64,000 nucleotides of DNA from a virus. Under the pieces are notes generated by a model. It ran no database searches and was not told the DNA's origin. It saw only the letters and a list, made by a program, of their open reading frames with translations. Location: IMG/VR virus record IMGVR_UViG_3300044960_000921, positions 62,001 to 126,000 of that record; one strand, given 5' to 3'. The translations under genes were made by a program, and so were the position numbers. How positions within the stretch are numbered: position 1 is the stretch's first letter; each line of letters begins with the position of its first letter. Shown one piece after another: positions 2,335 through 58,474 of the stretch.

Positions 2335-2904
2335 GTGCGCGAGAAGTACCTCGGCGACTCCTTCGATTTGGTGAAGCGGTTCTGGGCCGACTCGCTTTCG
2401 GTGATCGCCCCGTTAATGGCTCACGACCGCTTTATTCCAAAGGATCTCCGTGCAAGGTACTCCCTGCTGATTTCGATGCCGATCTACGATCCCGCGTCAC
2501 CACCAGCCGCACGCTTCGGCCTGCTGCTCGATCCCCACACCGGGATACCTGTCCCCGAGCACAAGATGATCGAAGCGACAATCGAGCACGCCCCACTCGC
2601 CTTCATCGTGAGAGAGCTCAGGCGGCTTCGACCAGCCTACATGGTCTGCTTTGACCAAGGGAACGACTGGCGTCACGAGCTTGATGCCGAAGCCCAACGG
2701 GAATCGAAGCGGGCGTACTTGAGCACGCAGGGAATTCCCTCGTTTTACTATCGCTCCCACGCTCCATTCCTCTTCCTGGCCAACACCGAACCGGAACTCC
2801 GGACGGTTCGCGAGCGACTGATCGCCGTGGGCATCCCGGAGTCGACATCGGATGGCTGCCGACTCCAGGACATCCTCCCCGCAAGCCAGTCAGAACAGCC
2901 GTAG
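2335..2904 (+). CDS. conserved-looking protein of unknown function, 189 aa
   Basis: Starts at GTG 2335, nine bases after the HTH gene, and ends tail to tail with the methylase-helicase gene (15-bp overlap). I do not recognise a family. Visible features are the N-terminal REKYLGDSFDLVKRFWAD, a central RFGLLLDPHTGIP segment, PAYMVCFDQGNDWRHELD, a basic helix EAQRESKRAYL and SFYYRSHAPFLF. There is no signal peptide or membrane segment and the composition is that of a soluble folded protein. As last gene of the RNA-repair/alarmone operon it may share that role, but nothing in the sequence shows a reaction. Confidence 0.6.
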   Translation: MREKYLGDSFDLVKRFWADSLSVIAPLMAHDRFIPKDLRARYSLLISMPIYDPASPPAARFGLLLDPHTGIPVPEHKMIEATIEHAPLAFIVRELRRLRPAYMVCFDQGNDWRHELDAEAQRESKRAYLSTQGIPSFYYRSHAPFLFLANTEPELRTVRERLIAVGIPESTSDGCRLQDILPASQSEQP

Positions 2905-5900
2905 CTGCTCCGCCTTTGCCTGACGGCGGTTCTCAACCGCCTTCGCATGGCCATTCACGGGTTTTGACAGGTCCGGCATCAGTATCACCGTCGCGGTCGG
3001 GGCTGCCGGCGACTCCTCAGGCTTCTCCTCGATCGTCGTGCTGGTTGCCGTGAGCCCTGTGGTTTCCTCTGCCTTCGCCGCCAACTGCTCGCCCAGCTTC
3101 GAGCGAATCCTCGCCGTGACCGGCCTTTCAGCCCGCGCGGCCTTCCTGATCGCCCGCTCCGGCGCGGATTCTACGGTGTTGGCCTCCCTCAACGTCTTAA
3201 TCTTCTCGGCCAGTTCCGCGACGGTCGGCCCCTCGGGCTTCGGCTCCTGCTGAGCCTTCTCCGAGAGCCCCTCCTTGAGCTGGTCACGCAGGTCGGCCAG
3301 CCGGGCCATGAACTCGCTGTGGGCGAACGGCTTGCCCAGGCGGGCCTCGTAGTCCTTGAGCTGCCCCTGTTTCACGCCGATCTCCGCCCGGTGGCTCCGG
3401 CACTCGTAGTCGTAGCTGTTCGCCAGTCGCTCCAAGGCGTTGAGCACGGCACGTGGGCCGGGGTTATCGCGCATGAGCGTCTCGCGCCGGCGGGTCGCCC
3501 CGTCCAGCACGACCTCCGTCCCGCCCAGCGGGTGCAGGATCAGGCTGGCTTCCAGTCCGCGGTATCTCCCCAGCGGCGTGCGGTAGGTTTCGCTCACCTT
3601 CTCCGGCATGCGCTTCATGCGCTCGGCGATTGCCTCCTGTGAGGGGATGAAATCGTTCGCCGCGAGCGTCGCCATATCGGCCGTCAGCCCGTCCAGCCGC
3701 TTCTCCAGCCGCCGGATGTCGTCGGGGAGGTCGCGGAGGTTCCGCTTCGCCAGATACTGCTCGTCCAGGTGGTTCTTCCGCAGGATGGCCAGCCGCTGCA
3801 GCTCTGCATCGGCCTCGGCCAGCGTCAGCACGGCGGGGTTACCGGACGCGATGGCCTTCACCTCGGCGTAGCTGAGTTCCTGTCCGCCGATATCCTCGGC
3901 CTTACGGACAGCGCAGTCGCCGCTCATCACCTGGGCGATGAATCGGGCCTTGGTCTCCAGCGCTTGCCACATGTAGGCGTCGAACGAGCCCTCGGTGACG
4001 TAGCGGAAGATCGCCACCTCGGCGTTCTCGTTACCCTGACGGAGGATTCGGCCGTCGCGCTGCTCGACCTCGGCGGGCTTCCATGGGGCGTCGAGGTGGT
4101 GCATGGCCACCAGCCGCTTCTGGACGTTGGTGCCCGTGCCCATCTTGGACGTACTGCCCAGCAGGACGCGCACCGTCCCTTGGCGCACCTTCTCGAACAG
4201 CGCCTGCTTCTTGGCGTCGGTGTCGGCATCGCCCATGACGGCGATCTGGCTGCGGGGGAGGCCGTGGTCGGCCAGTTTCTCCACGATTTCGTCATAAACC
4301 GAGAACGGATTCGGGTGGACGCCCATGTCGCAGAAGATCATCTGCGTGCCGCGCTTCGCCTCGGTCTGCCTCCATATCCGGACGACGTTGCCGACCAGGG
4401 CGTTGATCTTTGAGCCGGGGAAGTCGCCCCCGGCGCCGAGCATCCGCCCGTCGAGGGCCAGCTTGCGGCCGTCCGTGGTGATCGCCAGCGCGTTGTCCTC
4501 GCGGGGGTCCACCTTCTCGTTGCGGATGCGGTCATACCGCTTGATGAGCCCGGCTTGTAGTTCCCTCTGGTCATCCGACATCGGGCAGGCCACCGTCTGG
4601 GGCTTGCCGCCCTCCAGCTTCGGTCTGGGCAGGTCGAGCATCTCCGCCGTCTGCACGTCGGCGAAGGCCCGGAACATCTGGACCAGCTCGGGCAGGTTCA
4701 CGAACTTGGCGAAGCGGCTGCGAGGCCGCAGGCTGGCGCCGTCTGGCGAGATCTCCATGGAGTCGACCACCTCGCCGAAGGTGGCCGCCCAGGCGTCGAA
4801 GTGCTCGATGCCACGTGAGCGCAGCCCCTCGGGGTCGAGGAACCGCTGCATCGTGTACATCTCGACCATCGTGTTGCTGATAGGGGTGCCCGTGGCGAAG
4901 GTGACCCCGTGGCCGGGATGCTTCTCGTCCAGAAAGCGGGCTTTCATGAAAAGGTCGAACGCCCGCTCGCTGCCGCCGGTCTGGATGCCTGCCACACGCT
5001 CCATCTTCGTGGGAGTCTCGAGGTTCTTGAAGTAGTGCGCCTCGTCGACGAAGAGGTGGTCGACGCCCAGTTCGTCGAAGACCAGCCCGTCGTCCTTCTT
5101 GTCCTCGGCCAGCAGGTGCTTCAGCCGCTCCTCCCGGTTCGCCTTCTGCTTCTCCAGCGTCTTGATGATGTTGCGGCCGTGAGAGGCCTTGTCGACCAAC
5201 AGGGCCTCGTATTCTGCGATCTGTTCGCGCAGGAACCGCTCCTGGTATTCGCGGCTCATGCCTATACGCTCGAAGCTCGAATGCGTCGTGATGACGGCGT
5301 CCCAGTCGCCGGTGGCGATCTTGGCGGTCAGGAACTTGCGGCGTTCCTTCGTGAAGTCGTCTTTCGTGGCGATCAGCAGCTTGGCGTTCGGGTAGAGCTG
5401 CATGAACTCGCGGCCGAACTGCTCCAGCATGTGGTTCGGCACCACGATCATGGGCTTCTTGACCAGCCCGGCCTGCCGCATCTTCATCGCGGCCGCGGCC
5501 ATCTCGAAGGTCTTCCCGGCCCCGACGCAATGCGCCAGCAGCGTGTTCCCGGCCGTCATGCACCGCCAGACCGCGTCCTTCTGGTGCGGGTTCAGCGAAA
5601 TGGCCCGGCTCATCCCCGGGAAGTCTAGGTGCGACCCGTCAAAGAGTCGGGGACGAAGATTGTTGTAGGTGTCGTTGTACATCCGGACGAGCCGCTCGGT
5701 GCGGTCGGGGTCGGAGAAGACCCACGCCTTGAACCGCTCCTTGATGAGCTTCTGCTTCTCCTTGGCGGCCTGGGTTTCTGTCGGGTTCAGGACCCTCTCG
5801 TCGCCGTTGACGCCCCGGATCGTGTCGTAGATGACCGGGGATTTCAGGTTCAGGGCCTGGGCGAGCAGCTCCGTGCCGTTGATCCGGCCCGTCCCGAAGT

Positions 5901-7953
5901 CGGCGGTCGCCGCGACCGACTGGATGGCCCGGTAGTCGGGCTCCAGGCTCCAGACGGCATCCTTCTTCAGATGGCCGACGTTGAACGAGCCGCCGAAGAG
6001 CTCCTCCGCGAACGCCTTGATGTCCTTCTCGGGAATCCACGGAGCGCCAAGGTTCGCGTCGATGTCGCCGGGGAGGACGTCCTCCGGCTGGACTGATCGC
6101 AGGGCCACGGCGTTGCGGGCATACTCCGGCCCGGCCTTCTCGGCGGCGGCCAGCTTCGCGCGGACGTTGCCGGAGAGGTAGTCGTCGGCAACTTCGAACT
6201 TCCTGGTCTCCGGGTTTTCGAAGATCAGATCGCCCAGCTCGGCGATGATGAGTTGTACGGGCTTTCCGTACAACTGAGCGATGTACGGCAGGTCGACACA
6301 CCCGTGGTCATTCAGCGAGACCAGCAGGCCCTCCTCGGCGGAAGTTACGCGGGTGACGGGCGGCTTGGGCCCGACCACGTCCTTCTTCATGATGGCGGCC
6401 TTCTCCGCCCGGCCGGTGGCCTCGTCGTACTCTTCCAGCGACATGACCAGCATGGCGTCCGGGTCTTCCCGGAACTTGACCAGGTTGGGCATCCGGCGGA
6501 TGGTGCCGGTCCTGGTCTCCGTGAACGTGGTCTTGTTGACCGGGCCGTAGGCGGCGACGAAGCGGTCATAGGCCCGGTTCAGGTCGCGGCGGGCCTCCTG
6601 GCGGTTCGCCTCGGGCCAGCCCTCGTTCTGGGATTGGAGAACGCGGCGGGCGAGGTCGCGGAGCTCGATCAGCGAGCCGATCTTGCGGCCCTGGGGCGTG
6701 CCATTGGCCTTAAGCAGGACGCCGCAATAGGTGACGGGCTCTGCGTTTCCGTTCTCGACCTGGCGGATAACCCGCTCGTCGTCGATGAACAGGCTGCCTT
6801 CGGTGATGTGCCGGAGCGGCGGGGGCGGGACGAAAGGAGGCGTTTCAGGTTTGCGACCGAGATTAATGTCGGCCACAGCGGGCGGCGGATTAGGCCGCTC
6901 CGCCTCGGACTGCTTCACCTGCGGCAGCCGGGCGACGGCCTCCCTGAGCTGGGTGGCCAGGTCGCCGTTGCTGATCACGCTGAAGCCCACGGCGCCGTGG
7001 AGCAGGTGCTCCCGGCTCCAGTCGCCCAGCACCATCTCGTGGTGGTTCAGGAAGTAACGGTTGACCGGCAGGTCGGCCCCCGCGATGCCGATCTCGGAGG
7101 TCTCCAGCCATTCGGGGTCGGCGTGGTTCGGCGCCTGCCCGGGGGCCCGTTTCCGCAAGAAGAGGATGTCGGTGGTGACCGCCGTGCCCTCCCGCTTGAA
7201 CGCGTCGTTGGGCAGGCGGATGGCCCCGAGGAAGTCGGCCTGGCTGGCGAGCAGCTCGCGGACGGCCGCGTTCTGCTTGTCGAGCGTGAAATGGCTGGTG
7301 ACCACGGCGAGGACGCCGCCCGGCTTCAGGCCCTCGACCGACTTGGCGATGCAGAAATCGTGGAGGGAGAGCTTCTGGCCGTGGAAGTCGAGATGGACGT
7401 TGGCGAAGGGCACGTTGCCGATCACCGCGTCGAGCGGGGGGAGCCGGGTATCGCGGAAGTTCTCGATGCGGATGTCGGCCTGCGGGTTGAGCGCGCGGGC
7501 GATGCGGCCGGTGAGGGAGTCAAGCTCCACGCCGATGAACCGCTGGCTCGCGGGGGCGAGGGCCATGAAATTGCCGGTGCCACATCCCGGTTCGAGGACC
7601 AGGGCGTTATCGGGGACTCCCAGACGCGAAAGGGCCTCGTGCATGGCCCGCATGACGACGGGGGAGGTGAAGAACTGGGAGAAGGTCGTCCGCTTGGCGG
7701 AGTCGTATTCCTCGGGGGTCAGGAGCCTCTGAAGCTCCTGGCCGATCTCCTGCCAGCCGTCCTTGAACCGGCCGGTGACCGGGTCGGGGAAGATGGAGAG
7801 GGCGACGGGGCCGAAGCCGCCGAAGCGGCAGAGGGCCTGCATCTCGTCGTCGGTCGGGGGGCGGTGCTCCCGCTCGATGGTCTTGAGGGCACGAATGGCG
7901 GCGAGGATGTCGCGGGCCTTGGCCTTCTCGCCGGTAGAGAGTGGATTGTCCAT
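2890..7953 (-). CDS. DarB-like N6-methylase / SNF2-type helicase fusion
   Basis: About 1687 residues. The N-terminal methyltransferase has SAM motif I VLEPGCGTGNF (about 119-129) and a weakened motif IV IGNVPF in place of NPPF (about 178-183). Then comes an SF2 helicase: Walker A HCVGAGKT (about 807), DEAH box FVDEAHYF (about 967), FATGTPISN, and motif VI EQRDGRILRQGN (about 1297), followed by a charged coiled-coil tail. This is the plan of phage P1 DarB and of large plasmid methylase-helicases that protect DNA from restriction. ATG 7953 has a perfect AAGGAGG site six bases upstream. The frame stays open to ATG 8244, adding 97 Pro/Ser-rich residues, but that ATG has no ribosome site. Confidence 0.85.
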   Translation of the reverse strand: MDNPLSTGEKAKARDILAAIRALKTIEREHRPPTDDEMQALCRFGGFGPVALSIFPDPVTGRFKDGWQEIGQELQRLLTPEEYDSAKRTTFSQFFTSPVVMRAMHEALSRLGVPDNALVLEPGCGTGNFMALAPASQRFIGVELDSLTGRIARALNPQADIRIENFRDTRLPPLDAVIGNVPFANVHLDFHGQKLSLHDFCIAKSVEGLKPGGVLAVVTSHFTLDKQNAAVRELLASQADFLGAIRLPNDAFKREGTAVTTDILFLRKRAPGQAPNHADPEWLETSEIGIAGADLPVNRYFLNHHEMVLGDWSREHLLHGAVGFSVISNGDLATQLREAVARLPQVKQSEAERPNPPPAVADINLGRKPETPPFVPPPPLRHITEGSLFIDDERVIRQVENGNAEPVTYCGVLLKANGTPQGRKIGSLIELRDLARRVLQSQNEGWPEANRQEARRDLNRAYDRFVAAYGPVNKTTFTETRTGTIRRMPNLVKFREDPDAMLVMSLEEYDEATGRAEKAAIMKKDVVGPKPPVTRVTSAEEGLLVSLNDHGCVDLPYIAQLYGKPVQLIIAELGDLIFENPETRKFEVADDYLSGNVRAKLAAAEKAGPEYARNAVALRSVQPEDVLPGDIDANLGAPWIPEKDIKAFAEELFGGSFNVGHLKKDAVWSLEPDYRAIQSVAATADFGTGRINGTELLAQALNLKSPVIYDTIRGVNGDERVLNPTETQAAKEKQKLIKERFKAWVFSDPDRTERLVRMYNDTYNNLRPRLFDGSHLDFPGMSRAISLNPHQKDAVWRCMTAGNTLLAHCVGAGKTFEMAAAAMKMRQAGLVKKPMIVVPNHMLEQFGREFMQLYPNAKLLIATKDDFTKERRKFLTAKIATGDWDAVITTHSSFERIGMSREYQERFLREQIAEYEALLVDKASHGRNIIKTLEKQKANREERLKHLLAEDKKDDGLVFDELGVDHLFVDEAHYFKNLETPTKMERVAGIQTGGSERAFDLFMKARFLDEKHPGHGVTFATGTPISNTMVEMYTMQRFLDPEGLRSRGIEHFDAWAATFGEVVDSMEISPDGASLRPRSRFAKFVNLPELVQMFRAFADVQTAEMLDLPRPKLEGGKPQTVACPMSDDQRELQAGLIKRYDRIRNEKVDPREDNALAITTDGRKLALDGRMLGAGGDFPGSKINALVGNVVRIWRQTEAKRGTQMIFCDMGVHPNPFSVYDEIVEKLADHGLPRSQIAVMGDADTDAKKQALFEKVRQGTVRVLLGSTSKMGTGTNVQKRLVAMHHLDAPWKPAEVEQRDGRILRQGNENAEVAIFRYVTEGSFDAYMWQALETKARFIAQVMSGDCAVRKAEDIGGQELSYAEVKAIASGNPAVLTLAEADAELQRLAILRKNHLDEQYLAKRNLRDLPDDIRRLEKRLDGLTADMATLAANDFIPSQEAIAERMKRMPEKVSETYRTPLGRYRGLEASLILHPLGGTEVVLDGATRRRETLMRDNPGPRAVLNALERLANSYDYECRSHRAEIGVKQGQLKDYEARLGKPFAHSEFMARLADLRDQLKEGLSEKAQQEPKPEGPTVAELAEKIKTLREANTVESAPERAIRKAARAERPVTARIRSKLGEQLAAKAEETTGLTATSTTIEEKPEESPAAPTATVILMPDLSKPVNGHAKAVENRRQAKAEQLRLF

Positions 7954-7974
7954 GGAACCTCCTTGGGACGTTGG

Positions 7975-7995
7975 AGGCCCCGCGAGCGGGGGCCT
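7975..7995 (-). promoter_or_regulatory. hairpin just upstream of the methylase-helicase ribosome site
   Basis: AGGCCCC and GGGGCCT form a 7-bp perfect stem around a 7-base loop, ending about 10 bases before the AAGGAGG site of the giant gene at 7953. If translation starts at 7953 this is a leader hairpin that could tune expression. If the long start at 8244 is used it is simply coding sequence. Confidence 0.4.
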
Positions 7996-8274
7996 GACGT
8001 CGGAGCGATCCACAGACGCCAGGGCGGACGGGTCAACGCCCGTAATGGGGTTGGGGGACCCGTTCGGGCTTGAGCCGGCCGACTGCGGCTGTACCTTCGC
8101 GGAGGAAGGACCCGGCGGGGAGGTATGGACGGTATGGGGAGGGGGTTCGGCGAAAGAGAGCGAGGCCTGGCCGCGAGCGGGCCGGACGCGCTCCACGAAG
8201 GAGGCCGGGCGATCTTTGGGGGGAAAGCGGCTGGCGAAGGACATTCAGGACGGGCGGCGGTGGTTGACGCAGCC

Positions 8275-8455: not shown

Positions 8456-8531
8456 GCGGGGTAAGTGCTGACGGTTGCACGCCAGCCTTCCAAGCTGGAG
8501 GAGCTCGGTTCGAATCCGGCACCCCGCTCCA
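8456..8531 (+). tRNA. tRNA-Gly (anticodon UCC)
   Basis: The 76-base cloverleaf includes an encoded CCA. The acceptor stem GCGGGGT pairs with ACCCCGC at 8521-8527, the discriminator is T, and CCA is 8529-8531. The D stem is GTGC/GCAC. The anticodon stem CCAGC/GCTGG (8482-8486, 8494-8498) encloses loop CTTCCAA with anticodon TCC at 8489-8491. The T loop is TTCGAAT; its stem has one C-C mismatch and one wobble. Phage tRNAs often supplement codon supply, and the 3' end of a tRNA can also be an attachment site, but no integrase is in view. Confidence 0.88.
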
Positions 8532-9211: not shown

Positions 9212-9469
9212 CTACCGCCTCCGGTCCCCCGCCCACATGCTTCGCTCGTCGAGCCGGCGGCCGACCCGCTCCATATTTATCCGCTGCGCGTGGGTCAGGT
9301 GGGAGATGGGACGGAAGATGGACTGCGCAGCTTGAATGGCGCACGGCAAAGCCATCAGGACCATGCAGCCGATGGCAATTTGGTTCAAGAACATGGCCTG
9401 CTTGCCGCTGGCATTCTGAGCCATGCGCTCGGCCTCGCGGGCGACGAAGGAAGGGTTAACGGCGTTCAT
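9212..9469 (-). CDS. small membrane protein of the lysis block
   Basis: 85 residues with one hydrophobic segment (QIAIGCMVLMALPCAIQAA, about 30-48) between a polar N-terminal helix and a basic C-terminus rich in Arg. The start ATG 9469 overlaps the small lipoprotein gene by 14 bases. It is the last gene of the lysis transcript. One membrane segment plus charged tail would fit a class III-like holin or antiholin, but no family is recognised. Confidence 0.55.
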   Translation of the reverse strand: MNAVNPSFVAREAERMAQNASGKQAMFLNQIAIGCMVLMALPCAIQAAQSIFRPISHLTHAQRINMERVGRRLDERSMWAGDRRR

Positions 9470-9563
9470 GGGGCTCGAATACCAGGGGAAACAGTGGGTA
9501 CGGTGTGCAGCCCGACATGAGGGCCATCGTCACCGCGAAGATGATCCAGTATCGCCAGTACAT
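9456..9563 (-). CDS. 35-aa lipoprotein
   Basis: ATG 9563 is preceded by a strong purine-rich AAGGAGAAGGA site. The protein has an Arg-flanked hydrophobic signal and a lipobox ALMSGC, then a short Pro-rich mature part (TPYPLFPLVFEP). Proline-rich mini-lipoproteins resemble o-spanins, but a better Rz1 candidate lies at 9789-10025, so this may be an accessory envelope protein. It overlaps the zinc-finger gene in another frame by 34 bases. Confidence 0.6.
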   Translation of the reverse strand: MYWRYWIIFAVTMALMSGCTPYPLFPLVFEPHERR

Positions 9564-9691
9564 TCCTTCTCCTTTTCGATCCGCCAAAGGCAGAGTTCCA
9601 CGCAGTTCTCGCAGATATGCACGTTCCGCGAGGGATTGGCAACGAGTATCTTGCCCCGCCCATCCCCGCAGAAATCGCATACGGCGATCAT
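9530..9691 (-). CDS. free-standing ClpX-type zinc finger, 53 aa
   Basis: The ATG at 9691 overlaps the previous stop (ATGA); the ORF runs to TGA 9530. The protein has Cys5-x2-Cys8, eighteen residues, then Cys27-x2-Cys30 in CDFCG...HICENCVELC, which is the spacing and flanking pattern of the ClpX N-terminal zinc-binding domain (CSFCG...YICDECVDLC). ClpX uses that domain to bind substrates and adaptors. No ATPase part is present. Inference: a phage decoy or adaptor for host ClpXP. It sits in the middle of the lysis genes, between two overlapping tiny ORFs. Confidence 0.7.
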   Translation of the reverse strand: MIAVCDFCGDGRGKILVANPSRNVHICENCVELCLWRIEKEKECTGDTGSSSR

Positions 9692-9792
9692 CCTGGGCTC
9701 CGACCGTAGGCGGCGAAGAGCACCAGGCCGGTCAGGCGCGCATGCAGACGCTCGCGGGCTTGGCAGCCGCGGACGACGCGCAACAGGATCAC
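9688..9792 (-). CDS. possible 34-aa protein in lysis block
   Basis: GTG 9792 overlaps the Rz1 stop (GTGA) and the TGA stop overlaps the ATG of the zinc-finger gene. The peptide is basic and hydrophobic (ILLRVVRGCQARERL, then LTGLVLFAAYG). The tight overlaps on both sides match the style of the operon, which is the main reason to accept it. No family recognised. Confidence 0.4.
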   Translation of the reverse strand: MILLRVVRGCQARERLHARLTGLVLFAAYGRSPG

Positions 9793-10025
9793 AGCGAGTC
9801 CACCAATCCGGCGTGGCGGGCAGAGCAATCGCGGTACATGACGACGAGTTCCAGGTAGTCGGTGATCAGGTCGTCGGCGGTGCGGCCCTCGAACTGCCGC
9901 AGGGGTGGGCATTTGGCCGTGAGGTTAGCGTGGGGTCTCGCCCACGGGGCCGGTGGCATCGCGGAGCAGCCCGATACGGCTATCGCCAAGCAGGCAAGGA
10001 GAAGGTTCTTGAGCACGGAGTTCAC
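9789..10025 (-). CDS. Rz1: Rz1-like outer-membrane spanin lipoprotein
   Basis: 78 residues from GTG 10025. It has a Lys-containing N-terminus, a hydrophobic signal and the lipobox IAVSGC at about 16-20, then a proline-containing mature part with CPPL, and the segment DYLELVVMYRDCSARHAGL typical of the Rz1/LysC partners found in many phages. It overlaps the Rz-like gene in another frame by 101 bases, the usual nested arrangement. Together the pair would fuse inner and outer membranes at the last step of lysis, which implies an outer-membrane host. Confidence 0.8.
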   Translation of the reverse strand: MNSVLKNLLLACLAIAVSGCSAMPPAPWARPHANLTAKCPPLRQFEGRTADDLITDYLELVVMYRDCSARHAGLVDSL

Positions 10026-10257
10026 TCCACTTTCGGTTGATGGTTGACTGCTTTTGCCGCAGGACAGCGAGCTCAGCCTCCACCGCCTCAGCCTTGGCGG
10101 CCAGCTTGTCCTGTCGCTCGACCTGGGCCCTGATCTGCTGGCGCAGCACGTCGGCCTGCTCAGCCTCCTCGATCTTGCCCTTGACGAAGTATCCTCCGAG
10201 GAAGACGGATAGAACGGCCAGCGTGAGGAGGCCCATCCGGATCAGCGCGGGGTTCAC
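9925..10257 (-). CDS. Rz: Rz-like inner-membrane spanin
   Basis: About 110 residues from GTG 10257, which overlaps the endolysin stop (GTGA). One N-terminal membrane helix (MGLLTLAVLSVFLGGYFV) is followed by a long charged coiled coil with heptads (EEAEQADVLRQQIRAQVERQ...) and a terminal domain NRKWSELRAQEPSPCLLGDSRIGLLRDA, a pattern I know from Rz/LysB proteins. It is the partner of the overlapping Rz1. An in-frame extension to 10293 would intrude into the endolysin gene and is not needed. Confidence 0.82.
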   Translation of the reverse strand: MNPALIRMGLLTLAVLSVFLGGYFVKGKIEEAEQADVLRQQIRAQVERQDKLAAKAEAVEAELAVLRQKQSTINRKWSELRAQEPSPCLLGDSRIGLLRDATGPVGETPR

Positions 10258-10970
10258 CGCAGCCCCCTGCGGCGGTCGTCCCAGCGGCTCCACATGATGA
10301 ATGCGGCGGCAGCGATCACCACCAGGCCGAACACGATAAGCAGGCCGTCGGGGTGTTCGTGGGCGCTCTCGGCTACGTCGCGAACGACGGTAACAGCCGG
10401 GGCCATCTGGTTCACCTGGTCAGCCAAGCCGGTGCCGACAGCAACGACGCCGGTCCCCGCCAGCGCACCGGAGGCAGACATGGTGCGGGTGCGGGCCAGC
10501 GGGCGTTGCTGGTCGAGTGCTTCCTTAGGCGTGGCCGGGGGCTTCGTGTCGACGTCGTTGAAGAACAGGTGTTCGTGGCCCCGGTTATGGGTCACACGGT
10601 AGACGGGTTGCTTGCCCTTGGCCCATTTCGGCTTTTTAATGAACGTGGCGTAGTAGTGCGTGCTGCCGCTGGTCGGGTCCGGTAAGGCCCCGCTCAGGGC
10701 GGCCGAGGCTATCTCGCGGCACCGATCGAACCACGGGCCTTTTGCGGCCAGGATGCGGGCACGGTTCGGGTCATTGGCGTTCCAGCAGGAGAACTGCCAG
10801 GGCTGGAGACAGACCTCGGCGGCCGTGTCGGGCCAGTTCCGGTACCTGGCGCGATTCATAACCACCGAGGCGATGGCCTTGGCGTCCGCGGCGTTTCCCG
10901 CCTCGGCTTCGCCGTAAAGAGTTCGGGAGAGGATGTCCAGGTCATGCACGGTCGGGGTGGTCATGGTCAT
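10254..10970 (-). CDS. SleB-like cell-wall hydrolase (endolysin) with C-terminal membrane anchor
   Basis: 238 residues. The N-terminal about 130 residues match the Hydrolase_2/SleB fold: LSRTLYGEAEAGN with the catalytic Glu, AIASVVMNRARYRNWPDT, VCLQPWQFSCWNAND, and STHYYATFIKKPKWA. These are lytic transglycosylase/amidase-type peptidoglycan hydrolases. The C-terminus holds a glycine-rich stretch and a strong membrane helix (LLIVFGLVVIAAAAFIMW) before a basic tail, so the enzyme is probably tethered. The start ATG 10970 follows an AAAGGGAC site. It heads the lysis cassette and precedes Rz/Rz1. Confidence 0.88.
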   Translation of the reverse strand: MTMTTPTVHDLDILSRTLYGEAEAGNAADAKAIASVVMNRARYRNWPDTAAEVCLQPWQFSCWNANDPNRARILAAKGPWFDRCREIASAALSGALPDPTSGSTHYYATFIKKPKWAKGKQPVYRVTHNRGHEHLFFNDVDTKPPATPKEALDQQRPLARTRTMSASGALAGTGVVAVGTGLADQVNQMAPAVTVVRDVAESAHEHPDGLLIVFGLVVIAAAAFIMWSRWDDRRRGLR

Positions 10971-17806: not shown

Positions 17807-18472
17807 TTAGCTTTGAATCTGGGTCCACACCGTGGTCGCGGCAGGCTTCACCGCGTCGACAGCGGCGTAGATGTCCGCATCCGTCACGGCGCCCTGGACG
17901 AGCGCGAGGCTTGCGTACATCGCCTGGCTTGCCTGGCCGTAGCCGCCACTCGGGACGCCGTACCCGGCGATGTTGGGGATGCCTTGCCCGAGCGGCCGGT
18001 AGGCGACCACGAAGGCCTGGTGGGGCATCTCCAACGAGCCGTAGCCGCCGCCCACGCCGTAGCCCACGCCGCCCACGCCGTAGCCGCCCGTATCGTCGGG
18101 CCTGCTCGGCTCGAACACCCACGGGGTGCGGCCGGTGAGGATCTCCAGCGTCCGGATCAGGCCCCTGCGGGTGCCCTTCTCGGGGAACAGGGCGGCGAGG
18201 ATACGCGTGCGATACGCGTCGTCGGTCTCCTGCCGCTTGCGGGGCAGCCCGGAGCCGAAGAAATCGAAGGCGATCAGGTCGAGGAAGCCGTCGGTGGCCG
18301 TGCCGATGCGGCACTGCCTCCGGGCGTAGTCGGCCAGCCCGTAGGCTGCGGCCAGCGCCCAGCCGATGCCGGCCAGCACGCCGTCGAGGATGGGGGTCTC
18401 GTCGCGGAACCAGCCGCCCGGGAGGACGGCCTTGATTCGCGAGGAGAAATCGGATCGATCACCAGTGGCCAT
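17807..18472 (-). CDS. baseplate protein I / Mu gp48-like
   Basis: 221 residues. KAVLPGGWFRDETPILDGVLAGIG and LDLIAFDFFGSGLPRKRQETDDAYRTRILAALF match the P2 gpI / Mu gp48 (YmfQ) baseplate family. It is followed by a Gly-Tyr-Val repeat (GGYGVGGVGYGVGGGYG). Its place after the J-like gene is canonical. The GIY-YIG gene upstream overlaps its start by 14 bases. Confidence 0.75.
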   Translation of the reverse strand: MATGDRSDFSSRIKAVLPGGWFRDETPILDGVLAGIGWALAAAYGLADYARRQCRIGTATDGFLDLIAFDFFGSGLPRKRQETDDAYRTRILAALFPEKGTRRGLIRTLEILTGRTPWVFEPSRPDDTGGYGVGGVGYGVGGGYGSLEMPHQAFVVAYRPLGQGIPNIAGYGVPSGGYGQASQAMYASLALVQGAVTDADIYAAVDAVKPAATTVWTQIQS

Positions 18473-19208
18473 TCATCTTCCTACGAATGTTTCGCAACGT
18501 TGCCGCTTCTGACAGAGCCTTCTTCCTCTCAGGAGATAGCACCCGGTTCATTGCTGCCTCTGACAACTTACGACGATGTTCCTCAGATTTAGGCTTGCCG
18601 CGATTTGCAGCAGACATTTTAGCGCGTTCCTCGGCAGTAGGTTTCCTGCCCTTGTTTCTGGCGCTGATGAGAGCCTTCTGCTCCGGCGTCATCGGTCGCT
18701 TCTTCTTGCCACGCATGATAGCTGCTACCTTCTCGGCGATTTCTCTGGGACGCTTCCGTCCCTTGAGTGAGGCGCTGATCTTGGCGCGCTGCTCTTGCGT
18801 GATGACTTTCCCTTTTTGTGATTCCGATATTTTTCGGATGACGTCTGGCGGCAGCTTCTTGCCTTTTCGGGCATTTGACAGCTTTCTGCGAGTGCTTATT
18901 GCCGTAACATGTCCGTTATGTCCGTCGCCGCCAGGACTCACGTTTGTGAGCTGGCATCCTTGGCTTCGGTAATATGCGATCCAATAACACTCTCGCTCGG
19001 CCCAATTATCGCCGACTTCCTCGATGCAACGGATTATTGGTCGCTTCCCTTCAGCTTTTAGCTTCCCTATCCACCGACCGGAATACACCTTCGGATTGGC
19101 CTCCATGTGCTTTGCAAGTCGATTGCAAAGGCGCATTGCGGTTTTACCTACATAGCGAACTTCGCCGGTATCAGGATCGCAAAGCACATATATTCGAGTA
19201 ACCCTCAT
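18459..19208 (-). CDS. GIY-YIG homing endonuclease with NUMOD3 repeats
   Basis: 249 residues. The GIY-YIG module is at the N-terminus: IYVLCDPDTGEVRYVGKT (Tyr7 and Tyr19 region), then Arg27 in RLCNRLAKH. The C-terminal half repeats a short helical DNA-grabbing motif of the NUMOD3 type at least five times (RRKLSNARKGK, IRKISESQKGK, RAKISASLKGR, KALISARNKGR, RAKMSAANRGK). The gene is visibly less GC-rich than its neighbours and splits the baseplate J and I genes, a free-standing homing endonuclease insertion. Confidence 0.9.
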   Translation of the reverse strand: MRVTRIYVLCDPDTGEVRYVGKTAMRLCNRLAKHMEANPKVYSGRWIGKLKAEGKRPIIRCIEEVGDNWAERECYWIAYYRSQGCQLTNVSPGGDGHNGHVTAISTRRKLSNARKGKKLPPDVIRKISESQKGKVITQEQRAKISASLKGRKRPREIAEKVAAIMRGKKKRPMTPEQKALISARNKGRKPTAEERAKMSAANRGKPKSEEHRRKLSEAAMNRVLSPERKKALSEAATLRNIRRKMNGHW

Positions 19209-32949: not shown

Positions 32950-33474
32950 TTAGACGGCGAGCAGGCCGGCCTTGGAGAGGGCGTTCTTCAGCTCGATGCG
33001 CTGGACCGGCTCCAGGTTGGCGGAGGCGAACGCCTTGTCGACTTCGCCGAGGGAGAGCTTGGCGTTCTCGCCAGGCAGGGTGAGGCCGCTGCGCGCCAGC
33101 AGGGCGGTCACATGGGGCGTCAGCGTCTTGCGCTCGGCGGGCTGGGCGTTCTTCGCCGCCGCGGCCTTCAGGTCGGCGATCTGCGTCTCCTGGGCCGCGA
33201 GCTTGTCCTCCAGCTCCTTCACCTTCTTGTCGCTGGCCTCCTTCTCGGCGGCGGCCTTAATGTCGGCAGCGGCCTTCTCGTCCGCGGCTTTCTTCTCGGC
33301 GGCGGCAGCGGCGCGAGCCTCCTCGGCCTTCTGCTTCTCCTCCGCCGCGGCGGCCTCGATGGCGTCGATGCGCTTGTTCACGGTGGCGAAGCCCGCATCC
33401 AGGGCGTCCTTCATCGCCTTTTCCTGGGATTCGGCCTGGGCCTTGAGCAGTTCCTTCAGTTCATTGATGTCCAT
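32950..33474 (-). CDS. internal-start scaffold protein
   Basis: A nested in-frame product of 174 residues. ATG 33474 (Met331 of the fusion) has a GAGGAG site seven bases upstream, exactly between protease and scaffold parts. This copies the lambda C/Nu3 arrangement, in which free scaffold is made from an internal start. The protein is almost all coiled coil (KELLKAQAESQEKAMKDALDAGF, AADIKAAAEKEASDKKVKELEDK) with a globular C-terminus that would bind the capsid protein. Confidence 0.72.
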   Translation of the reverse strand: MDINELKELLKAQAESQEKAMKDALDAGFATVNKRIDAIEAAAAEEKQKAEEARAAAAAEKKAADEKAAADIKAAAEKEASDKKVKELEDKLAAQETQIADLKAAAAKNAQPAERKTLTPHVTALLARSGLTLPGENAKLSLGEVDKAFASANLEPVQRIELKNALSKAGLLAV

Positions 33475-34464
33475 GGTGTTCTCCTCGGCCTGCGCGGCCA
33501 GTGATGTGGTTGAGTATGCGGCCTTGTCCTTGTAGAGGATCGCAGCCCCGGTGAAGACGCAGTCCGTGATCTCCCACGAAGCCGCGGTGGTGTCCTTCAC
33601 GTAGATGTTCCGCATCTCGTAGGAGAAGCCGAGCAGGCTACGTTCGGACCGCACGCGGGCGACTTCATCGGGAAAGTCGGCCGCGTATAGGAATCCTTCG
33701 ATGTGGATGGCGTCCCCCTCGATGGTGGCCGCCGTGATGGTCCCGATCTTGCGCTTGACGTCGTGGCCCGCCAGGTCGGAGGCGAGGTCCACGGGCATCC
33801 CCAGGAGCGTGGGCAACGCGCGTTCGGCAGCCGCCCGCGTCAGGATGACGCGGCGGTTCTTGCTGCCCTCGGGCGGCCGGTCGCTCGGCTGGTCGATGCG
33901 GGTCAGGATGCCCTTGAAGGGATGCTTGTTCGGGTGGCCGGGCGTGTGGGGCAGGATGAGTGCCATCGCCTCGATGCGGTCCACGACTTCGAGGGATGCG
34001 GCCTCCAGCTTCACGAAGCCCTTCTCCTCGGCCCAGTGCTCGTTAAGCGGCTCGTGGATCTCGGGGCCGAACACCAGGTCGCCATCGAAGGGGACAACCT
34101 TCGAAAGGTCCACGTCTCCGGCGTCGTAGGTGATGGTGACGTGGGGGGAGTAGCTGTCGCCGTGATCCCACGACGCACCCATCTGGCGGGCTTCCTTCCA
34201 GCGGGCCTCCAGTTCGGGGCAGACGAAGTGCAAGACGATGGCGCCCTTGGCCCCGAGCGGCGTGACGAATCGCCCGCCGGTGCTCGCGGCCATGTTTCCG
34301 CCCTGGGGGCGGAACCAGACCGGGGCCCGGCTGTAGACGATGGTCGCGTGGAGCTCGTGCTCGGGAACGAGGTTTGTGAAGCCCTGCGACTTCGCCCAGG
34401 CGGCGAAAGCGGCCGCCGAATCGGGGGTCAGGTTACGGCGGACGTACAGTCCCTGCTCGGACAT
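32950..34464 (-). CDS. fusion: 2H phosphoesterase (Acb1-like) + prohead protease + scaffold
   Basis: 504 residues in three parts. Residues 1-160 carry two HxT motifs, His39-Ala-Thr41 (HATIVYS) and His108-Val-Thr110 (HVTITYD), the 2H phosphoesterase signature. Their spacing of 69 equals that of the T4 anti-CBASS protein Acb1 as I recall it (H44, H113). Residues about 165-325 look like a head protease (DLAGHDVKRKIGTITAATIEGDAIHIEGFLYAADFPDE, SERSLLGFSYEMRN with likely His234 and Ser281). From 331 on it is a coiled-coil scaffold (KAEEARAAAAAEKKAADE). It sits upstream of the capsid gene. Protease and scaffold are firm; the nuclease substrate is inference. Confidence 0.82.
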   Translation of the reverse strand: MSEQGLYVRRNLTPDSAAAFAAWAKSQGFTNLVPEHELHATIVYSRAPVWFRPQGGNMAASTGGRFVTPLGAKGAIVLHFVCPELEARWKEARQMGASWDHGDSYSPHVTITYDAGDVDLSKVVPFDGDLVFGPEIHEPLNEHWAEEKGFVKLEAASLEVVDRIEAMALILPHTPGHPNKHPFKGILTRIDQPSDRPPEGSKNRRVILTRAAAERALPTLLGMPVDLASDLAGHDVKRKIGTITAATIEGDAIHIEGFLYAADFPDEVARVRSERSLLGFSYEMRNIYVKDTTAASWEITDCVFTGAAILYKDKAAYSTTSLAAQAEENTMDINELKELLKAQAESQEKAMKDALDAGFATVNKRIDAIEAAAAEEKQKAEEARAAAAAEKKAADEKAAADIKAAAEKEASDKKVKELEDKLAAQETQIADLKAAAAKNAQPAERKTLTPHVTALLARSGLTLPGENAKLSLGEVDKAFASANLEPVQRIELKNALSKAGLLAV

Positions 34465-43805: not shown

Positions 43806-44201
43806 ATGCACCAAGACGCCAACCAGAAGTTAGCACTCCTCACTCAGGCATGGAAAGAGGCAAAGCAGCAAGAAGCCGAAGCCAATGCCCGCCGTATCGC
43901 TATCGAATCCCAAATCTATGAACTGGTTGAGGCAGAGCTGCCCGAGAAAGGCACGCACACGCTACCTTCCGGCATGAAGATCGCCACGGGGTTCAGCGAG
44001 GAATGGTCGCAGGAGCAACTCAACGCCGCTTATCAGGACTGGGACGCCTCGGTGCCGTTCCCGTTCACCGGCGTCTGGAAGCCCGACGGCAAGGCCATCA
44101 GCTATCTGCGCGACAATTTGCCGGAGGCTTACAAGAAGATCCAGCCCGCCCTTACGCTGAAGCCGAAGAAGCCTGCCTTCAGTGTGAAAGATGCGGCTTA
44201 A
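43806..44201 (+). CDS. early protein of unknown function (131 aa)
   Basis: ATG 43806 after ACGGAG. Helical N-terminus (KLALLTQAWKEAKQQEAEANARRIAIESQIYELVEAELPEKGTHTL), then GMKIATGFSEEWSQEQL. Resembles short phage proteins that precede recombination genes. First gene of the early operon; function unknown. Confidence 0.65.
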   Translation: MHQDANQKLALLTQAWKEAKQQEAEANARRIAIESQIYELVEAELPEKGTHTLPSGMKIATGFSEEWSQEQLNAAYQDWDASVPFPFTGVWKPDGKAISYLRDNLPEAYKKIQPALTLKPKKPAFSVKDAA

Positions 44202-44229
44202 CTCCCAGGAATATGAAAGGACAACCGAA

Positions 44230-45015
44230 ATGCTAAACCTCTCCGAAATTAAACCTTCCCGCGTTATTCTGCCGCCCCGGCTTGTGCTGTATGGGCCTCC
44301 GAAGATTGGCAAGACGACCTTCGCCGCCGACATCGAAGGCGCCATCATCCTCGACATCGAGGGTGGCTCCGGGGCGCTCAACGTGGCCCGCGTACAGAAG
44401 GACAAACTGACGTCCTACGGCGATGTGATTGCTGCAGTCGAGGCCCTCTACACACAAGACCACCCGTTCTCCACAGTCGTCATCGACTCGGCCGACTGGC
44501 TCGAGGCCCTGATCTTCCAGCAGGTGGCCGCCGAGGCCGGGAAGAAGTCCATCGAGGACATCGGCTACGGGGCGGGGTATGTGGCTGCCGTGAATCTCTG
44601 GAAGCAGCTCTTCGACGGACTGACGGCCCTGCGGAACGACAAGGGCATGGCCGTGCTGCTGATCGCTCACGACCAGGTGAAGCGCTACGACAACCCACTC
44701 ACCGACTCCTACGATCGGCACATGCTGAAGCTGCACGCGAAGTCGGCCGCGATCCTCACCGAGTGGTCGGACTGCCTCCTGTTCGCCAATCAGGACGTCT
44801 ACATCGACGCGAAGGACGTGGGCTTCAAGAAGAAGGTCACGAAGGGCCGCGCGGGCGACCGGGTGCTGCATACCGTCGAGAGCCCCGCCTTCATGGCCGG
44901 CAACCGCTACGGCCTCCCGCCGGAGCTGCCGTTCTCGTGGGCTGCGTTCAACGAGGCGTTAACCGGCGCCCTCTCTGAGCCTCAAACGTCCGAGGCAGGC
45001 GTGGAGGCCGCTTAA
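44230..45015 (+). CDS. Sak4-like RecA-fold ATPase
   Basis: 261 residues after an AAAGGA site. LVLYGPPKIGKTTFAADIEGAIILDIEGG carries Walker A GPPKIGKTT; FSTVVIDSADWLEAL is Walker B; AVLLIAHDQVKRYDNP follows. Known as phage nucleotide-binding or Sak4 proteins, these act in single-strand annealing recombination with an SSB-like partner, here the next gene. Confidence 0.82.
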   Translation: MLNLSEIKPSRVILPPRLVLYGPPKIGKTTFAADIEGAIILDIEGGSGALNVARVQKDKLTSYGDVIAAVEALYTQDHPFSTVVIDSADWLEALIFQQVAAEAGKKSIEDIGYGAGYVAAVNLWKQLFDGLTALRNDKGMAVLLIAHDQVKRYDNPLTDSYDRHMLKLHAKSAAILTEWSDCLLFANQDVYIDAKDVGFKKKVTKGRAGDRVLHTVESPAFMAGNRYGLPPELPFSWAAFNEALTGALSEPQTSEAGVEAA

Positions 45016-53660: not shown

Positions 53661-56447
53661 GTGCTGCGTACACACTGGATTACCGATGCTGCTGCTGCGA
53701 AGGCCTACTATCAGGCATCGGACTATTACGCGCAGGCGCAGGGCGACTGGCTCGGCAAGGGCGCCGAGGCCCTCGGGCTGGTGGGGCAAGCTCGGAAAGA
53801 GGACTTCGAGCTGCTCTGCGACAATCTGAACCCGCTCACCGGCCAGCCGCTCACGACCTATACCCGCGACGGCAGGCGGGTCGGCATCGACCTGAACTTC
53901 AACAGCACGAAGTCGGTGGGCATCGCGCGCGAGCTGGCGGGGCCGGACAACCGGGGCGACGATCGGATCGAGTGGGCGCACCGCGAGGCCGTGGCCTATG
54001 CGATGGGTTATGTCGAGGCCGACATGCGGGCCCGCGTCCGGGCCGGGGGCAAGAACGAGGACCGGGTCACGGGTAACATGGTCGCCTTCCGGGTGACGCA
54101 CCGGGATACCCGGGTCAGCGGCCAGGATGGTTTGCCCGACATGAGCCTTCACGACCATGTGGTCGTCTTCAATGCCACCGAGGATAAGTTCGAGGGCAAG
54201 TGGAAGGCCGCCGAGATCGGGCAGATCAAGCACGACGCCCCGTACTACGAAGCCATCTACCACAACCGACTGGCGTCGAACCTTCGGCAACTCGGCTACG
54301 GCGTTCGGAAGAAGGACAAGGCTTTCGAGATCGAGGGCATCTCCGACGAGCTGGTCCGGAAGTTCAGCCGCCGCCGGGCCTACATCGACCAGGTGGCGGA
54401 GAAGCTGGGCATCACCAGCCCCGAGGGCCGGAACACGCTTGGGGCAACGACCCGGCTGGGCAAGGTCAAGGAACGTGCGGACGACCTCAACCGCTACTGG
54501 GTCAGCCGCCTGACTGACGTGGAGCGCCAACAGCTTACCGGGCTGATCGGCAAGGCCGGGTACGAGGGGGACGTAAAGGCGGCCGTCGAGTTCGCCATCG
54601 GCCACCTGTTCGAGCGCAAGAGCGTGGTGGACGAGAAGCGGGTCTACGAGACGGCGATCCGCCACGGCATCGGGGCCGTGACGCCGGAGCTCGTCCAGGA
54701 GGAGGCGAAGCGGCAGGGCCTGCTCACGAAGGACGGGGAGGCCACGACTCGGCTGGTGCACGCGGAGGAGCAGCGGGTGATCGGGTTCGCCAGGGATGGG
54801 CGGGGGACGTGCAGGCCGATGGGCAACGAAAAAGGCCGCCCGGATTCGAATGAGCGGCCTTTGATCTCAAAAGAAAATGGCGTATCGGGGTTAGAGCTTC
54901 ATAACGGCCTCGACGGTTTCGGGTTCAACGAAGACGCTCAAATCGTAGGAGGCCATGGTGCCACATCTGCGACGGTGGCGCAACCGAAATCTGAACTCTC
55001 CCCCGATCAGGCCGCCATCGCCCGCCACGTCTGGACCTCCCCCGACCGGGTCATCCTGATCCGCGGGGCCGCAGGCACCGGCAAGACCCACACGATGAAG
55101 GCGACCATCGCGGGCATCGACCGCCCGGTGGTCGTCCTGGCCCCCTCCGCCGAGGCCAGCCGGGGCGTGCTCCGCAAGGAAGGCTTCTCCGAGGCCGACA
55201 CCGTGGCCCGGTTCCTGATCGACGAGAAGTTCCAGGAGAAGGCCCGGGGCGGCGTGATCTGGGTGGACGAGGCCGGGCTGCTGGGCATCCGCCAGGTGCG
55301 GGAGGTCTTCGACGCCGCCGAGCGGCTGGGGGCCCGCGTCGTCCTGCAGGGCGACCGGAAGCAGCACGGCTCGGTGGAGCGCGGGGCGACTCTGCGGGTA
55401 CTCGAGGAGTTCGCCGGGCTGCCCGTGGCGGAGTTGAAGGATATCCGCCGCCAGCAGGGCCGCTACAAACAAGCGGTGGCGTCCCTGGCCAAAGGCGACC
55501 TTCTGAGCGGGTACGACCAGCTCGAGGCCCTGGGCTGGGTCAGGGAGGCCCAGGACAACGCCCCGCTGGTCGAGGACTACCTGGCAGCGCTCGATGCCCG
55601 GAAGTCCGTCCTGGTCGTCGCCCCGACCCATGTCGAGGGCGGCGAGATCACGGCCGAGATTCGGGCCCGGCTCAAAAAGCGGGGGCGTATCGCCAGCGAG
55701 GGCAAACAGATTGGCGTCCTCGTTCCCCTTGGCTGGACGGAGGCCGAGCGGGGCGACCTTGAGCGATACGAGGGCGGCGAGGTGCTCCAGTTCCACCGGA
55801 ACTCGGGCACATTCCGGGCCGGGGACCGCGTCCGTGTGCTCGACTGGAAGCCGGGCGACCGATTCGCCAAGGCGTCGCACTTCTCGGTGTACACGCCGTT
55901 AACGATTGAGGTTGCGGCCGGGGATCAGGTCCGCATCACTGCCAACGGCAAGACGAAGGACGGCGAGCACAAGCTGAACAACGGGGCGACCTACCGGGTC
56001 AAGGGCTTCACGAAGGACGACGACATCGTCCTGGAGAACGGCTGGGTCGTGGGCAAGGACTTCGGCCACCTGGCCCACGGCTACGTGACCACCTCGCACG
56101 CGAGCCAGGGCAAGACCGTCGACCGCGTGCTGATCGCCATGGGGAGCGAATCCCGCCCGGCGATGGGCGCGGAGCAGTTCTACGTCTCGGTGTCGCGCGG
56201 CCGGGAGCAGGCGACGATCTACAGCGACCTGACGCCGGCCGAGCTGCGCGAGGCCATCCAGAGGGCCGATTCCCGCAAGTCTGCGACGGAGCTACTCCGG
56301 CCGGTGCCGGTTCCAGTGCGGCCGAGGCGGCGGGTGAAGACGCTCGCGGAGCGTATGCGACTGGCGTTCCAGCAGTTGCGCGAGAAGGCGGCCAGTGCTA
56401 TGCCGGTGGCGAGGGAGAAGGAGCGGAGCTATGCAAGGTCTAGATGA
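53661..56447 (+). CDS. MobF (TrwC-like) conjugative relaxase-helicase
   Basis: 928 residues. The relaxase N-terminus has a tyrosine cluster (Tyr16, 17, 22, 23 in KAYYQASDYY) and the metal histidines (His147, His164, His166 in THRD...SLHDHVVVFNAT). After about 770 bases of linker an SF1 RecD-like helicase follows: Walker A GAAGTGKT (about 467-474), IWVDEAGLLG, LQGDRKQHGS, TTSHASQGKT and VSVSRGREQA. The protein nicks one strand at oriT and unwinds it for transfer. GTG start, no ribosome site. Residues about 390-440 hold an odd inserted stretch with a terminator. Type IV secretion genes are absent here. Confidence 0.88.
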   Translation: MLRTHWITDAAAAKAYYQASDYYAQAQGDWLGKGAEALGLVGQARKEDFELLCDNLNPLTGQPLTTYTRDGRRVGIDLNFNSTKSVGIARELAGPDNRGDDRIEWAHREAVAYAMGYVEADMRARVRAGGKNEDRVTGNMVAFRVTHRDTRVSGQDGLPDMSLHDHVVVFNATEDKFEGKWKAAEIGQIKHDAPYYEAIYHNRLASNLRQLGYGVRKKDKAFEIEGISDELVRKFSRRRAYIDQVAEKLGITSPEGRNTLGATTRLGKVKERADDLNRYWVSRLTDVERQQLTGLIGKAGYEGDVKAAVEFAIGHLFERKSVVDEKRVYETAIRHGIGAVTPELVQEEAKRQGLLTKDGEATTRLVHAEEQRVIGFARDGRGTCRPMGNEKGRPDSNERPLISKENGVSGLELHNGLDGFGFNEDAQIVGGHGATSATVAQPKSELSPDQAAIARHVWTSPDRVILIRGAAGTGKTHTMKATIAGIDRPVVVLAPSAEASRGVLRKEGFSEADTVARFLIDEKFQEKARGGVIWVDEAGLLGIRQVREVFDAAERLGARVVLQGDRKQHGSVERGATLRVLEEFAGLPVAELKDIRRQQGRYKQAVASLAKGDLLSGYDQLEALGWVREAQDNAPLVEDYLAALDARKSVLVVAPTHVEGGEITAEIRARLKKRGRIASEGKQIGVLVPLGWTEAERGDLERYEGGEVLQFHRNSGTFRAGDRVRVLDWKPGDRFAKASHFSVYTPLTIEVAAGDQVRITANGKTKDGEHKLNNGATYRVKGFTKDDDIVLENGWVVGKDFGHLAHGYVTTSHASQGKTVDRVLIAMGSESRPAMGAEQFYVSVSRGREQATIYSDLTPAELREAIQRADSRKSATELLRPVPVPVRPRRRVKTLAERMRLAFQQLREKAASAMPVAREKERSYARSR
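54831..54862 (-). terminator. terminator-like hairpin inside the relaxase gene
   Basis: AAAGGCCGC and GCGGCCTTT form a perfect 9-bp stem with a 14-base loop. On the minus strand the message would end in TTTTTCG. It is in the linker between relaxase and helicase domains and faces a 21-codon minus-strand ORF (54891-54956). Confidence 0.5.
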
Positions 56448-57778: not shown

Positions 57779-58474
57779 GTGATAGCCGGCGGCCATGCCT
57801 TCGTGTCCTTCCGCCACCCGGAACAGCTCTCGCTCGCCATCGAGGCCTGCCAGAGCTTCGCCGTGGACAACGGGGCCTTCTCCGCCTGGATGGCCGGGGA
57901 GGCCGTCACGGACTGGTCCGGCTATTACGCCTGGGTCGAGGGGCTGGCCCGCTGCCCGGCCTTCGACTTCGCCGTCATCCCCGACGTCATCGACGGCTCG
58001 GAGGCCGAGAACGACGCCCTTCTCGACGCCTGGCCCTTCCCCCGCTGGGCCGGGGCTCCCGTCTGGCACATGCACGAATCAGTGGACCGCCTGTCACGTC
58101 TCGTCCAGGTCTGGCCCCGTGTCTGCCTTGGCAGTTCGGGGCGGTTTGCCACGGTCGGCACGGCTGCCTGGTGGGGCCGCATGGCCGAGGCGATGGACGT
58201 TGCCTGCGACAGGGAGGGACGCACGTTCTGCAGGCTGCACGGCCTGCGGATGCTCGACCCGAGGGTATTCACCCGCCTGCCGCTCGCCTCGGCCGATTCC
58301 ACGAACATCGCCCGCAACATCGGAATCGAGGCGAAGTGGCGCGGGCCGTACACGCCGCCGAACAAGGAGGCTCGGGCCTGGTTGATGAGGGAGAGGATCG
58401 AGGCTCACCAGTCGCCGAGCCGGTGGGAGAGGCGGGATCACCCGATTCAGGCCGAACTGGCTGGGCTGGTGTAG
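57779..58474 (+). CDS. TGT/DpdA-like 7-deazaguanine transglycosylase family protein
   Basis: 231 residues, GTG start. GGHAFVSFRHPEQL, SFAVDNGAFSAW, FDFAVIPDVIDGSEAENDALL, VWHMHESVDRLSRL, CLGSSGRFATVG, FCRLHGLRMLDP and ASADSTNIARN are the signature of a phage protein family I associate with queuine tRNA-ribosyltransferase-like folds. Such enzymes exchange guanine for deazaguanine in tRNA or DNA. No queuosine biosynthesis genes are in the window, so it would have to use host precursor, or do something else. Confidence 0.6.
   Translation: MIAGGHAFVSFRHPEQLSLAIEACQSFAVDNGAFSAWMAGEAVTDWSGYYAWVEGLARCPAFDFAVIPDVIDGSEAENDALLDAWPFPRWAGAPVWHMHESVDRLSRLVQVWPRVCLGSSGRFATVGTAAWWGRMAEAMDVACDREGRTFCRLHGLRMLDPRVFTRLPLASADSTNIARNIGIEAKWRGPYTPPNKEARAWLMRERIEAHQSPSRWERRDHPIQAELAGLV

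Follow-up and report, generated by a model that had tools for sequence, protein, structure and literature searches.

A 53-residue protein encoded in the lysis operon of a contractile-tailed phage is very probably a zinc finger of the ClpX type that stands alone, without an ATPase. We found it in a window of 64,000 nucleotides, corresponding to bases 62001-126000 of a 142,954-base viral record that carries terminase, portal, tail sheath, tape measure and baseplate genes. The DNA itself gives the reading frame, the four cysteines with their spacing, the likeness to ClpX in profile and predicted fold, the packing of the operon and the missing ATPase, and on this basis the protein appears to be a divergent variant of a kind of phage protein that is already known. 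The best overall explanation, to which we give a probability of roughly 0.4, is that a late ClpX-related finger would shift proteolysis by ClpXP.

The ORF (MIAVCDFCGDGRGKILVANPSRNVHICENCVELCLWRIEKEKECTGDTGSSSR) runs from position 9691 to position 9530 on the minus strand; the same frame on the plus strand is interrupted by a stop. Its cysteines (C5, C8, C27 and C30) have exactly the C-x2-C-x18-C-x2-C spacing of the four cysteines of PF06689. Scanned for in DNA form, this core (9602-9679, minus strand) has a single match in the window, and 100 dinucleotide shuffles gave 0. A preliminary description of this DNA, which named no strand, had reported the 53-residue ORF, the cysteine spacing and the absence of an ATPase, and all three are confirmed: the translated product contains no ATPase, and a search for the AAA_2 family found no match anywhere in the 142,954-base record, so that the AAA+ part of the ClpX unfoldase (TIGR00382) is lacking. 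At 53 aa, the product is a short, finger-only protein, to be compared with the 54-204 aa of 40 complete free-standing ORFs from other viruses that are described below.

Database profiles point to ClpX and to no other family. The only Pfam family matched by the protein is zf-C4_ClpX (PF06689), at 25 bits (E 1.7e-5), two bits short of the curated gathering cut-off of 27 bits; the ClpX-profile search proposed in the preliminary description therefore gives a match, but one below the cut-off. A six-frame search of the whole record with PF06689 returned the zinc-finger ORF alone (23.1 bits, E 1.4e-5), with no second zf-C4_ClpX match. NCBIfam yielded ClpX models only (TIGR00382, 20.6 bits), and the best match of a phmmer search against the PDB was the zinc-binding domain of E. 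coli ClpX (2ds5/1ovx). The C4 zinc finger of TraR/DksA was considered and rejected, as it gave no match while zf-C4_ClpX was the sole family reported by Pfam at E values up to 1. Nothing in a defence-system library was matched by the ORF. Among PHROG families, the protein matched phrog_3680 (5e-4), phrog_6797 (0.0035) and phrog_12435 (0.0045), whereas five other free-standing fingers that we compared reached about 1e-7 or better with at least one of these families.

The likeness extends past the cysteines, yet much of it lies in a few pattern residues, as shuffled sequences indicate. With a finger profile derived from full-length ClpX proteins of viruses, the real protein scored 32.1 bits; among about 5,000 shuffles in which the methionine and the four cysteines stayed in place, the highest score was 15.8 bits. 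When C, F, G, I and E of the pattern were fixed as well, 6 of 5,000 shuffles attained 32.1 bits. Unrelated viral C4 proteins with identical spacing scored from 0 to 26 bits on the ClpX profile, and full ClpX proteins and free-standing ClpX fingers, the latter being a class set by a line that we chose at 35 bits, scored from 35 to about 80 bits. The 53-residue protein thus falls at the edge of the family, closer to ClpX than to unrelated fingers.

The AlphaFold2 model (AF2; pLDDT 84.7) is a treble clef with a hairpin (residues 15-19 and 24-27) followed by a helix (28-44). The top match of Foldseek in the PDB was again the ClpX zinc-binding domain (2ds5_A; TM 0.57/0.69, 1.6 Å, probability 0.90), with an E value of 0.69 that is not significant alone. 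As the AF2 alignment was made of ClpX-type fingers, the ClpX-like model is consistent with the sequence evidence and not independent of it. A viral library gave no informative match. Compared with the domain described by PF06689, 2ds5 and 1ovx, the protein shares the cysteine spacing, the C-x-F-C-G start, the V-x-I-C-E-x-C-V-E-L-C end and the predicted treble clef; it differs in having no AAA+ ATPase, in its 25-bit score under the cut-off, and in an arginine in place of Ile46. The hairpin also differs: the L-I-A-G-P of ClpX is replaced by L-V-A-N-P-S-R-N and displaced by two residues. In an alignment to the profile of free-standing fingers, the hairpin segment ILVANPSRNVHIC is two residues shorter ahead of the point marked by LIAGPSVYIC in ClpX and two residues longer behind it.

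In E. coli ClpX, Phe16 and Ile46 line a hydrophobic side pocket that is bound by trigger factor, and this pocket overlaps the site for lambda O and that for SspB and RssB (PMC7804408). The phenylalanine is kept in the 53-residue protein (Phe7), and the equivalent of Ile46 is Arg37, so that the Phe16/Ile46 pair of the pocket is incomplete. I, L, V or M occupies the Ile46 position in 39 of 40 viral full-length ClpX proteins and in 31 of 34 fingers that stand alone in phages. The phenylalanine was part of the pattern used to collect these sequences, and its conservation among the matches is no evidence.

These residues bear directly on the proposal, made in the preliminary description, that the protein occupies ClpX adaptors. 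A free finger could act as a decoy, soaking up SspB-like adaptors or substrates and thereby shielding phage proteins from ClpXP. The N-domain of ClpX does bind SspB, RssB, lambda O, MuA and FtsZ, a free SspB peptide filling the N-domain site blocks degradation (PMC3983244), and Phe7 of the pocket is retained. However, Ile46, the second pocket residue identified in PMC7804408, is an arginine here, where ClpX and the remaining free-standing fingers of phages retain an aliphatic residue, and a place in a late operon would be late for the protection of replication proteins. With Ile46 replaced by Arg37 and the knuckle/hairpin loops shifted by two residues, occupation of adaptors is not supported, and we regard such a decoy as quite improbable. 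The earlier interpretation is supported in part, for an ATPase-free ClpX-like finger inside a lysis operon; its other proposal, dimerisation with host ClpX, is tentative.

The same changes are also compatible with a more general role. The protein may descend from a ClpX finger and now bind another protein or a nucleic acid, for example as a regulator of late functions; we consider this a serious possibility, short of even odds. Loss of the pocket isoleucine, the moved hairpin and the sub-threshold Pfam score all agree with it, as do the unrelated small phage proteins with the same C4 spacing (0-26 bits on the ClpX profile) and the RING, parkin and other treble-clef domains that Foldseek also lists with weak scores. 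Conversely, the protein outscores every unrelated C4 protein of equal spacing, the V-E-L-C at the start of its helix is ClpX-like, and Pfam gives no alternative family, not even TraR/DksA. While the altered pocket argues against adaptor capture, it leaves pairing with ClpX fingers and a role away from ClpX about equally likely.

It would be wrong to regard a free-standing ClpX finger as unusual. Scanning viral contigs with the pattern C-x-F-C-G-x16-[VI]-C-[DE]-x-C gave at least 120 matches, which we sorted by profile score and length. The 120 matches listed comprise 48 full ClpX proteins, 40 complete free-standing ORFs (54-204 aa) and 32 unrelated, weak or truncated sequences. In annotated phages, tblastn with two free-standing fingers found matches in the Pseudomonas phages phi1, BUCT566 and EM and in the Escherichia phages P88, D6, PhiR44_2 and PhiR41_1. 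Free-standing ClpX fingers are therefore widespread in phages and already annotated, and the kind is not new. Bacillus phage G gp258, which also appeared free-standing by tblastn, was set aside because its annotation is that of a complete ClpX-like protein, with a ClpP-like protein encoded next to it. Our searches of a literature library found no paper, functional or other, on free-standing phage ClpX fingers.

Members of PHROGs 12435, 6797 and 5259 (for example in phi1, P88 and Cr30) resemble the 53-residue protein in being a single short finger with no ATPase. The neighbours annotated beside the Pseudomonas and Escherichia fingers are replication, NinG, Ea22-like and other accessory genes, and the finger of Caulobacter phage Cr30 is surrounded by hypothetical genes, close to a tRNA. 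In none of the annotated phage regions examined did we find lysis genes beside a free-standing finger. The copy in the window thus differs from the annotated ones, which belong to early, replication or accessory regions, both in its place in a lysis operon and in its 25 bits against PF06689, compared with 45-61 bits for five free-standing fingers tested against this family. In P88 (KP063541, 10195-10527) and D6 (MF356679 / NC_050154, 78777-79097), the ORFs carry the ClpX-type finger at the C-terminus; the label 'carboxylate-amine ligase' on the finger ORFs of P88 and of D6 in NC_050154 is probably a naming error. Current names of phage ClpX fingers ('carboxylate-amine ligase', 'protease', 'ClpX') are uninformative or misleading.

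All genes of the lysis block lie on the minus strand, and the block itself, claimed in the preliminary description, is confirmed. Immediately upstream of the finger are an endolysin of the cell-wall hydrolase type (10254-10970; Pfam Hydrolase_2, 8.8e-18, and a PHROG endolysin match), a probable Rz-like inner-membrane spanin (9925-10293; weak match to phrog_1152, E 0.007) and, overlapping it in an embedded-Rz1 arrangement, an Rz1-like outer-membrane spanin lipoprotein of the LysC type (9789-10025; Pfam LysC 26.5 bits, phrog_456 Rz-like spanin 5e-8, phrog_2425 1e-13). A 34-aa ORF with a GTG start (9688-9792) links Rz1 to the finger: its start overlaps the Rz1 stop (GTGA), and its TGA overlaps the ATG of the finger (ATGA). 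A Shine-Dalgarno-like GGAG (9698-9701) lies 6 nt before this ATG. Downstream, a 35-aa lipoprotein-like ORF with the lipobox LMSGC (9456-9563) starts within the last part of the finger ORF, where a separate GGAG (9569-9572) precedes it; it is a second small lipoprotein of the block. The last ORF (9212-9469) has a coding score and no family match, and its 85 residues resemble a small membrane protein.

The tight overlaps and the GGAG favour real, coupled translation of the finger. They also suit another reading, that the ORF serves mainly to hand on ribosomes, which arrive from Rz1 and the 34-aa ORF, to the start of the nested lipoprotein, and that its product matters little. The GTGA and ATGA overlaps on its 5' side, the lipoprotein start and GGAG within it, and its neutral codon score are all in keeping with such a relay. 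A relay would not, though, preserve a ClpX-like core of four cysteines (absent from all 100 shuffles; E 1.4e-5 in the search of the whole record), and we judge this reading unlikely. Codon statistics of the finger ORF are neutral (-5.7 bits) and give no clear coding support, and its G+C is 0.549 against 0.65-0.66 in the upstream lysis genes.

Comparative data for the locus are sparse. No relatives of the 53-residue protein were found in annotated phages (E 0.01) or in viral contigs; in a set of genome contigs, the 80 matches listed of 392 fall within long ClpX-type frames from Bacteroidota-type genomes. Searches with the 85-aa and Rz1 ORFs likewise found no relatives. In the six closest relatives of the endolysin, the spanins are present and the finger is absent (6 of 6). 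Only one of 16 baseplate relatives searched has a free-standing ClpX finger, of 73 aa, and it lies beside a ParB-like ORF, outside a lysis block.

We infer the expression, zinc binding and action of the finger from these features. The explanation that we prefer starts from a small phage protein expressed late, which would consist of one treble-clef domain with bound zinc, akin to the N-terminal domain of ClpX, and would be translated by coupling through the GTGA, ATGA and nested-start overlaps of the endolysin-spanin operon. It could then serve as a protein-binding module touching the N-domain of host ClpX or one of the partners of ClpX. Contact would be made by pairing with ClpX fingers, not by way of the pocket that adaptors normally use, and would shift ClpXP proteolysis late in infection. 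The ClpX N-domain recruits the phage substrates MuA and lambda O as well as adaptors (PMC3983244, PMC7804408), and in some prophages induction is decided by ClpX itself (PMC10584840). SPO1 Gp53, a phage-made modulator of ClpCP, provides a precedent for phage proteins that act on a Clp protease of the host (PMC6873191); it differs from the window finger in its 25-kDa size, in having ClpC as its target and in not being characterised as a ClpX zinc finger. Together, these points make a ClpX-directed role reasonable for the class, and the recurrence of free-standing fingers in many phages suggests that the class has a useful role. For the window finger itself, the sub-cut-off Pfam score, the Foldseek E value, Arg37, the shifted hairpin and the codon score all speak against the explanation as a whole, as do the lack of relatives and the absence of the finger beside the six closest endolysins, and we hold an action on ClpX as tentative. 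Through its place in the lysis operon, the finger might couple the timing of lysis to the activity of host ClpXP, for instance by non-pocket pairing with host ClpX fingers that spares unstable lysis or late proteins, but this we regard as a long shot.

Stand-alone ClpX fingers recur across very different phages, including many uncultivated phages as well as those of Pseudomonas, Escherichia and Caulobacter. Should these fingers act on ClpX, steering of host proteolysis by this route would be common among phages, and the finger described here, without the pocket residue kept by the others, provides a divergent test case.

Several other features of the record deserve mention. A tRNA-Gly (tcc) at 8456-8531 (plus strand) lies near where the lysis block ends and is accompanied by a carbonic-anhydrase-like ORF on the opposite strand; it may mark a phage boundary, and a search for an att site around it found no repeat of at least 15 bases within the window. 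A TrwC-type relaxase with helicase domains (53661-56447, plus strand) is present in the same record as the phage head and tail genes, and three integrase-like frames lie outside the window (record positions 1314-1844, 44036-44638 and 141857-142471). With relaxase, integrase-like frames and phage genes together, the record is possibly a phage-plasmid or a chimera of mobile elements. The first 146 residues of a 504-aa ORF (32950-34464, minus strand) match the anti-CBASS protein Acb1 (E 2e-43); this part is apparently fused to a longer protein and adjoins the portal gene. Between baseplate and tail genes is a NUMOD3-containing ORF, probably a homing endonuclease (18459-19208, minus strand). We also found an SNF2-type helicase ORF of 1784 aa with weak methyltransferase-like matches (2890-8244, minus strand) and an ORF resembling queuine tRNA-ribosyltransferase (57779-58474, plus strand; phrog_887, E 1e-65).
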